Source: Dysgonomonas sp. ZJ279 (GTDB lineage Bacteria > Bacteroidota > Bacteroidia > Bacteroidales > Dysgonomonadaceae). From it: DNA of 64,000 nt. A model generated the notes under the pieces. It was given only the letters and a program-made list of their open reading frames with translations, made no database searches and was not told where the DNA came from. The stretch is from positions 124,001-188,000 of the forward strand of contig NZ_JAAKEL010000003.1 of NCBI RefSeq assembly GCF_011039205.1, in the 5' to 3' direction. This document shows positions 49,155 through 49,980 of the stretch, in pieces. Positions within the stretch are counted from its first letter, which is position 1. Every line of letters begins with the position of its first letter. The position numbers were made by a program, and so were the translations under genes.

Positions 49155-49385
49155 TTAGCCGATTTTTGCTTTATTTATTTTTTCAAGATATGCTGGATTA
49201 ATAACGCAAGCATTAAAGTATGCATTTGTTTCTTTCAGGCACTCGGGGCATAAACAGTTGTCATAATTGTCTTTTATGTAATCTCTTACTCCGCTATTCA
49301 AGCTTATTCTTGAGCATTGGCACAACTCTATTCTGTCTTCTCTACAAGCGAATGCAGTAGAGCATTTCTGGCATATTTTTTTCAT
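49155..49385 (-). CDS. Small Cys-rich (CWC-like) protein
   Basis: This 76-residue protein has eight cysteines. The N-terminal half KKICQKCSTAFACREDRIELCQCS has the spacing CxxC...C...CxC of the Cys_rich_CWC family (PF14375), and CLCPECLKE supplies a further CxCxxC group. These would bind one or two zinc ions. The function of the family is not known. The first gene downstream of the cobalamin riboswitch on the minus strand is this one, with about 310 bases between the riboswitch and the start codon and no consensus -7 box in that gap. Control by cobalamin is therefore possible but unproven. Confidence 0.82.
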   Translation of the reverse strand: MKKICQKCSTAFACREDRIELCQCSRISLNSGVRDYIKDNYDNCLCPECLKETNAYFNACVINPAYLEKINKAKIG

Positions 49386-49694
49386 AATCTGAATTTTTTA
49401 ATTAAACATTCTCTTTGATGATCTCTATTGTATTTTAGGAATCTCTTTCTTTGATTATTATATTATCATTTGTCAATCTCTTTCCCTTAAAAGGAGGGGA
49501 GAATAGAGCTAGACTAAACTGGATGATATCTTTATCGAAAGATATTGCATACAGCGTCTATATCTGAAAAATCATATATGCCTGATGGCTGCGCTTGTAA
49601 TGAAACAAGCATCTATGAATTTTCTCTAATAATGTAAAATAATAATTTAACTTACTATCTCTGTCCTTTATCGCGAAAGACGAAATCTATGTTT
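49386..49694. other. Long gap between the cobalamin riboswitch and the Cys-rich gene
   Basis: On the minus strand the riboswitch is followed by a hairpin GTCTTTCGCGATAAAGGAC at 49663-49681 (U-rich and A-rich arms around a CGCGAT loop), a likely expression platform. Further on lies a 26-codon ATG-started ORF at 49532-49612, directly preceded by an in-frame stop and without known homologs, a small hairpin at 49597-49614 and another at 49527-49546. Nothing here is a gene I can support. The gap could be a long leader or the remains of a lost cobalamin-related gene. Confidence 0.4.
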
Positions 49695-49742
49695 ATTGGC
49701 AGGTCTTCTGACTCACTCTTGTTTTGTACTACCTTCCCATCA

Positions 49743-49777
49743 TATCAGTTATCAATTATCAGTTATCAGTTATCAAC
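49743..49777. repeat. Five heptamer repeats TATCAGT inside the riboswitch
   Basis: Five tandem 7-base units (TATCAGT, TATCAAT, TATCAGT, TATCAGT, TATCAAC) lie in the variable arm of the cobalamin riboswitch. Confidence 0.9.
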
Positions 49778-49785
49778 TAAATTAT

Positions 49786-49813
49786 TGTTTACTGTTTACT
49801 GTTTACTGTTCAC
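49786..49813. repeat. Four heptamer repeats TGTTTAC inside the riboswitch
   Basis: Four tandem 7-base units (TGTTTAC three times, then TGTTCAC) lie 8 bases from the first block. In the RNA, CAGT in one block can pair with ACTG in the other at every seventh base, so the two blocks can fold as an imperfect ladder-like stem. Confidence 0.9.
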
Positions 49814-49949
49814 TGTTTCTGACAGTGGTTGGGGCTTTGTACAAACACTATTGTAGAGTTTACAGCAGCGCGACTGTTCAGGACTTACACCTGATTCCCT
49901 TTTCATTACTCATCCGAAGATTGCGGATTATGTAACACCAATTCAAAAG

Positions 49950-49980
49950 CAAAGTTATTTAATAAAAAATAATATGCAAT
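49950..49980 (-). promoter_or_regulatory. Promoter of the cobalamin riboswitch transcript
   Basis: On the minus strand ATTG (49977-49980, three of four bases of TTTG), 19 bases, then TAACTTTG (49950-49957, exact). Transcription would start about 7 bases on, next to the first base of P1 at 49942. Confidence 0.7.

Follow-up and report, generated by a model that had tools for sequence, protein, structure and literature searches.

In the RF00174 model of the cobalamin riboswitch, a short hairpin lies between the conserved strands CCACUG and GGGAAGG, whereas a riboswitch of Dysgonomonas sp. ZJ279 carries at this place a long arm made of two blocks of 7-base repeats. What is this arm, how would it have arisen, and does it bear on ligand sensing? 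We addressed these questions in a window of 64,000 nucleotides (the whole stretch of DNA analysed, to which all coordinates refer), in the genome that contains it and in other genomes. The cobalamin riboswitch class is defined by conserved core and B12-box strand motifs (GGGAAUC..GUCCUGA, CCACUG, GGGAAGG and GUCAGAAGACCUGCC). All of them are present in the window riboswitch, as judged from the Rfam alignment and the sequence, and cmscan matches the minus strand from 49957 to 49681 to RF00174 at 81.2 bits (E 1.9e-18), above the gathering threshold of 31.5 bits. The match spans the model from 1 to 189 and is not cut off, in agreement with the sequence-only reading, which had taken the aptamer to be complete. 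RF00174 is the sole Rfam family reaching threshold in the 64-kb window, where no group I intron is recognized. The predicted fold energy of the whole riboswitch gives z = –1.70, with 15 of 200 shuffles equally good. The features of the locus are as follows.

49681..49957, minus strand: complete cobalamin riboswitch aptamer (RF00174), by cmscan
49732..49828, minus strand: expanded terminal arm spanning CCACUG through GGGAAGG, 97 nt in all and 84 nt between the two motifs, by sequence, insert in the Rfam alignment, arm length and predicted fold
49784..49815, minus strand: 5' block of the ladder in the RNA, with four CAGU rungs and one CAAU rung (plus-strand TGTTTAC units at 49786-49813)
49778..49783, minus strand: loop closing the ladder, by predicted fold
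49743..49777, minus strand: 3' block of the ladder, with rungs GUUG, ACUG, ACUG, AUUG and ACUG (plus-strand TATCAGT-type units)
49663..49681, minus strand: candidate hairpin, which we take to be P13-like, proposed from a scripted complementarity check
49155..49385, minus strand: Cys-rich CWC protein (PF14375), first downstream ORF of at least 60 aa and candidate regulated gene, by ORF list and domain match

The window aptamer departs from the model it otherwise matches in full by its 97-nt heptad arm, in which 84 nt between CCACUG and GGGAAGG replace the short hairpin. The accessible literature on the cobalamin riboswitch speaks of a P6 extension. The repeat units lie where the sequence-only reading had placed them: TATCAGT-type units start at 49743, 49750 (TATCAAT), 49757, 49764 and 49771 (TATCAAC), and TGTTTAC-type units at 49786, 49793, 49800 and 49807 (TGTTCAC). 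The two blocks are the top two tandem arrays of the window by score (60 and 59; the next scores 44), and the lag-7 self-identity of the arm is 0.77 versus 0.324 ± 0.051 in single-base shuffles. The RNA strand reads GATAACTGATAACTGATAATTGATAACTGAT, with TAACTGA units present and one variant among them. The sequence-only reading had also proposed a ladder of 4-base stems and 3-base loops, and the predicted minimum-energy fold of the arm indeed consists of a basal stem of 6 bp followed by five stems of 4 bp that are separated by 3x3 internal loops; the region 49725-49840 has a predicted energy of –22 kcal/mol (z = –2.52; matched by 3 of 200 shuffles). The middle base of the 3-base spacers usually forms an A-U pair in related arms, and each 3x3 'internal loop' reads better as mismatch, A-U pair, mismatch.

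The window riboswitch is not alone in its genome (4.10 Mb, 58 contigs), which has six RF00174 matches. Four of the six carry a ladder in the equivalent arm (L003, L004, L005, which is the window riboswitch, and L006), and the other two have short hairpins. The four ladder arms measure 70, 70, 84 and 84 nt, L004 and L006 differing by one heptad on each side, and the register script finds every rung pair in them standard (16/16, 16/16, 20/20 and 20/20). They lie upstream of genes for the CWC protein (window), a DUF5074 protein, a TonB-receptor-like protein and a CbiK-like protein. Genome-wide matches to CAGTNNNCAGTNNNCAGT, that is, three CAGT units in a row, number nine, seven of them in riboswitches and two at another site (L010).

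Among relatives, RF00174 matches occur in all 25 Dysgonomonas genomes examined, 161 in sum, with lengths from 169 to 318 bases among the matches listed. Our analysis of the genus covers the long riboswitches among the matches listed, a set that excludes the weakest, and a sample of the short ones, a part of the 161, and at least 25 of those analysed, again among the matches listed, pass a loose ladder filter. In 395 genomes drawn evenly from the class, the ladder pattern is matched in the genome of the window only, which points either to a patchy distribution or to an exact pattern that is narrow. A survey with a ladder-plus-GGGAAGG pattern across 84,980 species, each represented by one genome, returned 56 loci. 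An RF00174 match covers the ladder at 30 of them; at three more (L057, L060 and L063) the pattern lies at the edge of the locus and adjoins a B12-box-like motif, and at the remaining 23 neither an RF00174 match over the pattern nor an accepted B12-box-like edge motif was found. The records of the confirmed loci are labelled Dysgonomonas, Paludibacter, Bacteroidales, Prevotella, Tannerella, Arcicella, Cytophagales, Alkalitalea, Natronoflexus and Bacteroidota, and, beyond Bacteroidota, unclassified bacterium (L029), Nitrospira (L058) and Deltaproteobacteria (L027); these labels are as in the records, some of which are metagenome-assembled, and the heptads of L027 are read as lying mainly in the neighbouring arm.

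Pattern matches also came to light in other contexts. In a metagenome-assembled genome of Planctomycetota, the heptad hairpin matched at L074:740-819 stops at the 5' end of a gene for RNase P RNA (minus strand, 299-745). Four Pedobacter genomes (L030, L051, L061 and L075) have in common a similar CAGT-heptad hairpin, and the sequence after it, GGGGAAGGAATCGAACCTTC, looks like a tRNA end in reverse; the impression by eye that these hairpins are linked to tRNAs was rejected, as neither Rfam nor ARAGORN finds a tRNA there.

To what extent the facing blocks pair can be judged from many arms at once. The motif script parsed 107 distinct riboswitches, with one failure (L105), and the register script took as input arms of at least 55 nt inside. 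Of these, 48 pass the ladder filter, and 32 are left after removal of near-duplicates and the manual exclusion of L102 and L122. In the 32 non-redundant arms, rungs pair in 516 of 556 cells compared with 499.3 ± 2.2 after shuffling, a test that relatedness weakens, and some of the arms came from a search by CAGT/ACTG pattern, which favours paired rungs. In an alignment of 16 arms, five rungs pair in 98.1% of cells versus 94.7 ± 0.7 in shuffles and 7.3-50.5% in slid controls; as these arms were chosen for regular ladders, 98.1% is an upper estimate (92.8% for all 32). The blocks thus pair beyond the window, as the sequence-only reading had supposed for the window itself. Predicted minimum-energy folds include every rung in 31 of the 48 ladder arms (23 of the 32) and at least three rungs in 40 (28 of the 32), and those of the other 17 of the 48 omit one or more rungs of the assigned register. 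Four or five rungs are commonest (27 of 32 arms).

The pattern of changes within rungs is mixed. Doubly changed cells number 16 versus 5.0 expected in the 16 chosen arms, and three pairs there contain a double change, a number that 66 of 500 shuffles reach; the number of pair types is reached in 441 of 500. In the 32 arms, 14 of 17 doubly changed cells fall in the loop-closing rung, and single changes away from that rung break the pair in 26 cases versus 14 in which it is kept. A strand-asymmetry test for RNA-level selection on rungs is null (19 pair-keeping versus 16 pair-breaking transitions, p 0.74). Selection on rung pairing is not claimed here as proven, because of this null result, the excess of breaking over keeping changes and the relatedness of the arms; the CAGT core is, moreover, kept also in dispersed arrays that have no facing partner.

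The spacers behave differently from one position to another. In the 16 chosen arms they pair in 38.6% of cases versus 48.5 ± 2.4 in shuffles (500 of 500 shuffles as high or higher). In the 32 arms, the third position pairs in 24 of 107 cases versus 45.9 in shuffles, the first at chance (29 versus 31.4) and the middle near chance (80 versus 77.3); clade structure weakens both tests. The flanking positions are mostly mismatched, and the reading that all of them avoid pairing has less support from the 32 arms, in which only the third position is below shuffles, than from the 16.

Comparison of homologues shows that the arm comes, goes and changes its sequence. Two riboswitches upstream of CWC genes (PF14375) in two species, L127 and L118, are very similar outside their arms and have arms of 81 versus 13 nt; their alignment also has a 7-base gap in the second arm. 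Likewise, the arm upstream of the anaerobic ribonucleotide reductase gene (NRDD) is 85 nt in L114 and 15 nt in L086, and that upstream of a TonB receptor gene is 84 nt in L138 and 11 nt in L083. L115 and the second plus-strand riboswitch of L111 have near-identical flanks and are followed by genes with near-identical starts (the gene of L115 is PFL-like), but the former carries a CAGT ladder and the latter a TAGC/GCTA ladder. A third heptad type, GACA/TGTC, is seen by eye in the arm of L068. Conversely, L133 and L134, which lie upstream of a CobQ-like and a TP_methylase gene, differ in their 5' halves and have almost identical arms. Neither the number nor the sequence of the repeats is therefore fixed among relatives.

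Arms appear to be shared within genomes. In 29 riboswitches, with genomes assigned by hand, exact duplicates dropped and L135 standing for L133, arm identity is 0.79 within versus 0.70 between genomes (35 and 371 pairs), the identity of the 5' core is 0.79 in both comparisons, and the 3' flank is no closer within genomes (0.83) than between them (0.84). Arm identity exceeds core identity in 17 of 35 within-genome pairs versus 61 of 371 between-genome pairs (Fisher p 3e-5, the pairs being non-independent).

The sequence-only reading had further proposed that the arm changes length in 7-base steps by strand slippage. Gaps of 7, 14 or 21 bases do recur in several homologue pairs (for example L003/L005, L047/L064, L136/L138 and L059/L134), and slippage itself would be a conclusion from comparisons of species and paralogues. 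Over 254 pairs, the gap counts are 43/61/34 for lengths 6/7/8, 19/21/7 for 13/14/15 and 3/9/2 for 20/21/22; a length of 1 is commonest (350), so that the multiples of seven are mere local peaks in a mixed distribution that combines true steps with misalignment. In L173, L174 and L172, contigs of one Dysgonomonas genome, the segment before CCACUG measures 58, 72 and 79 nt, lengths that are multiples of seven apart. This segment, the second arm, contains a seemingly one-sided heptad array in many of the Dysgonomonas riboswitches analysed.

The heptad is also dispersed outside riboswitches. The 25 Dysgonomonas genomes contain 1,268 matches to the CAGT heptad versus 51 to the reversed pattern used as a control, and four of them contain none. 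The notion that heptads are confined to riboswitches, which holds for 7 of 9 matches in the genome of the window, thus fails genus-wide. Within 20 dispersed regions examined, 24 arrays of at least three exact units were found, none facing another within 200 bases. Eight of the 25 genomes contain facing blocks, defined as two exact units per side with 8-38 bases between the sides. Of the 23 sites in all, 19 lie inside RF00174 matches, three at contig ends and one in an rRNA spacer (L176, between two tRNAs of an rRNA operon). The three contig-end sites resemble cut riboswitches, L172 showing half a riboswitch and the other two being identified, from the position or length of the contig, with L057 and L060. 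Two Dysgonomonas genomes have CAGT-heptad arrays in the spacer between 16S and 23S rRNA (L149:723-754 and L176:505-559); the L149 array recurs with its flanks at L150, L151 and L152, and by eye the facing units of L149 and its like are weaker. On some viral contigs facing CAGT-heptad hairpins are numerous and follow one another at intervals of about 270 to 2,500 bases; L258 has 12 of them in 11 kb and L204 has 5 in 5.6 kb, and L222, L244 and L245 are alike by match count. Some of these hairpins have AAAGGCAAAA-like loops. The motif script finds a cobalamin riboswitch at none of 80 viral loci. A restriction of facing blocks to structured RNAs consequently applies to the genus and not to the viral contigs with their dispersed facing hairpins.

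We consider it probable that the window holds an ordinary cobalamin riboswitch with an optional accessory arm, a hairpin lengthened by facing heptad arrays that pair as a ladder and turn over. The terminal hairpin between CCACUG and GGGAAGG would have been extended by two facing arrays of a dispersed heptad, approximately CAGTNAN, and because these arrays are mutually inverted and have a common CAGT core, they would pair as 4-bp rungs with mismatch, A-U, mismatch between them. Such a ladder would hold the conserved CCACUG and GGGAAGG strands together, so that the core should fold as in the short-hairpin relatives. Heptads would be gained and lost in 7-base steps, leaving the arm absent or composed of another heptad family in relatives, and we infer from the sequence comparisons that slippage and recombination between heptads may cause this turnover, which would explain the steps, the swaps and the shared arms. 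Most probably the riboswitch functions in the normal way, and it is the pairing of its blocks that makes the arm tolerable. Judging from the arm-less relatives only, the arm may be neutral for ligand sensing.

The arm might instead be a dispersed hairpin element, MITE- or REP-like, inserted into a permissive loop, a possible but doubtful origin. It fits the scatter of CAGT heptads through the genus (1,268 matches, control 51) and of facing hairpins through certain viral contigs, L258 having 12 in 11 kb, yet facing blocks of the genus lie mostly in RF00174 matches (19 of 23), and the 24 arrays of the 20 dispersed regions never face one another within 200 bases. A more general idea, speculative and unlikely as it stands, is that CAGU-heptad ladders form a portable RNA-arm module of fixed grammar (4-bp rung, mismatch, A-U, mismatch) that colonises permissive hairpins of structured RNAs (cobalamin riboswitches and rRNA spacers) and is swapped and copied among them, its spaced mismatches being kept by selection, for example against cleavage of a long perfect duplex. 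We regard as improbable the view that the arm is a tuning device, in which the number of rungs would determine how fast the RNA folds, how stable it is or how long transcription is delayed, with slipped-strand changes adjusting the response to B12. Some length differences are of 7, 14 or 21 bases, the prevalence of four or five rungs (27 of 32 arms) could mean a preferred length, and seven of the nine own-genome matches to three CAGT units are in riboswitches; against this, genes of the same family follow a short hairpin instead (CWC, 81 versus 13 nt; NRDD, 85 versus 15; TonB receptor, 84 versus 11), and the arm precedes genes as unrelated as those for CWC, TonB receptor, TP_methylase, CobQ-like, anaerobic ribonucleotide reductase and PFL-like proteins.

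The complementarity of the blocks could also stem from DNA-level hairpin templating (quasi-palindrome correction), RNA pairing being a by-product. The concentration of doubly changed pairs in the loop-closing rung and the almost perfect palindrome of the L029 arm would suit such a process, but templating should make the spacers complementary as well, and those of the 16 arms pair below shuffles (38.6% versus 48.5 ± 2.4), as does the third spacer position in the 32 arms (24 versus 45.9 of 107); we find this origin quite improbable. It is highly improbable that the CAGU heptads are protein-binding sites through which the arm recruits a protein, an idea put forward for TAACTGA repeats (PMC4679880). 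Retention of CAGT even where no partner faces it speaks for a protein site; in the riboswitch, however, CAGU is predicted to be double-stranded, and other rungs take its place (UAGC/GCUA in L111 and, by eye, GACA/UGUC in L068).

The sequence-only reading knew of no report of such repeats in this riboswitch, and we too found none of a heptad-repeat arm in a riboswitch in the literature searched, a search outside which most subscription journals lie; related heptads and a similar arm in another RNA have, however, been published (PMC4679880; PMC4476775). The nearest known parallel, by analogy of architecture alone, appears to be the P6b element of the Nostoc tRNA-Leu(UAA) group I intron, which is built of two alternative 7-nt motifs, TDNGATT and NNTGAGT; repeat units are inserted or deleted on one side of its stem or on both, and one repeat class can be replaced by the other (PMC4476775). 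Both are peripheral arms of structured RNAs on 7-nt repeats with unit indels and class replacement. The Nostoc arm, however, belongs to a cyanobacterial group I intron, whereas the arm described here is part of a riboswitch, occurs mostly in Bacteroidota, has CAGU/ACUG rungs and is shared between riboswitches.

A heptad closely related to that of the window arm is TAACTGA, reported as direct repeats in Beggiatoaceae, Cyanobacteria and five Bacteroidetes including Paludibacter propionicigenes (MacGregor 2015, PMC4679880). According to the available text, those repeats are intergenic and by themselves predicted to form no particular RNA structure, in contrast to the facing blocks within a riboswitch seen here; the words riboswitch and cobalamin are absent from its main text. 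Geobacter metallireducens has multicopy elements of four or five tandem heptanucleotides, for which a regulatory role was proposed and one class of which is drawn looped (PMC2700814). They differ in consensus (GGACCGG or MTYCTGA) and are not placed inside a riboswitch in the text available, where the term 'cobalamin riboswitch' does not occur.

The arms make the evolution of a riboswitch periphery visible, since near-identical flanks take a CAGU or a UAGC ladder, members of one gene family are preceded by either a ladder or a short hairpin, and paralogous switches share arms. They also provide a natural length series for testing how a peripheral arm affects folding, and they link an unexplained family of dispersed CAGT heptads to structured RNAs, with a parallel in the cyanobacterial intron arm.

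Downstream of the aptamer, the CGCGA of the candidate P13-like hairpin could form 5 bp with the aptamer UCGCG by scripted complementarity, a candidate L5-L13 kissing loop; for each of the five remaining riboswitches in the genome the same script gives only 3-4 bp. Related riboswitches upstream of CWC genes again show CGCGA or CGCGG loops. The CWC ORF starts 295 nt from the aptamer end, and its position makes it a candidate for control by the window riboswitch. A 26-codon ORF (49532-49612, minus strand) lies between riboswitch and CWC gene and could be a leader peptide or a chance ORF. On the opposite strand, a mechanically called ORF (49696-49935, plus) runs antisense to the riboswitch and reads the repeats as SYQLSVISYQL; it is likely spurious and represents an annotation hazard.
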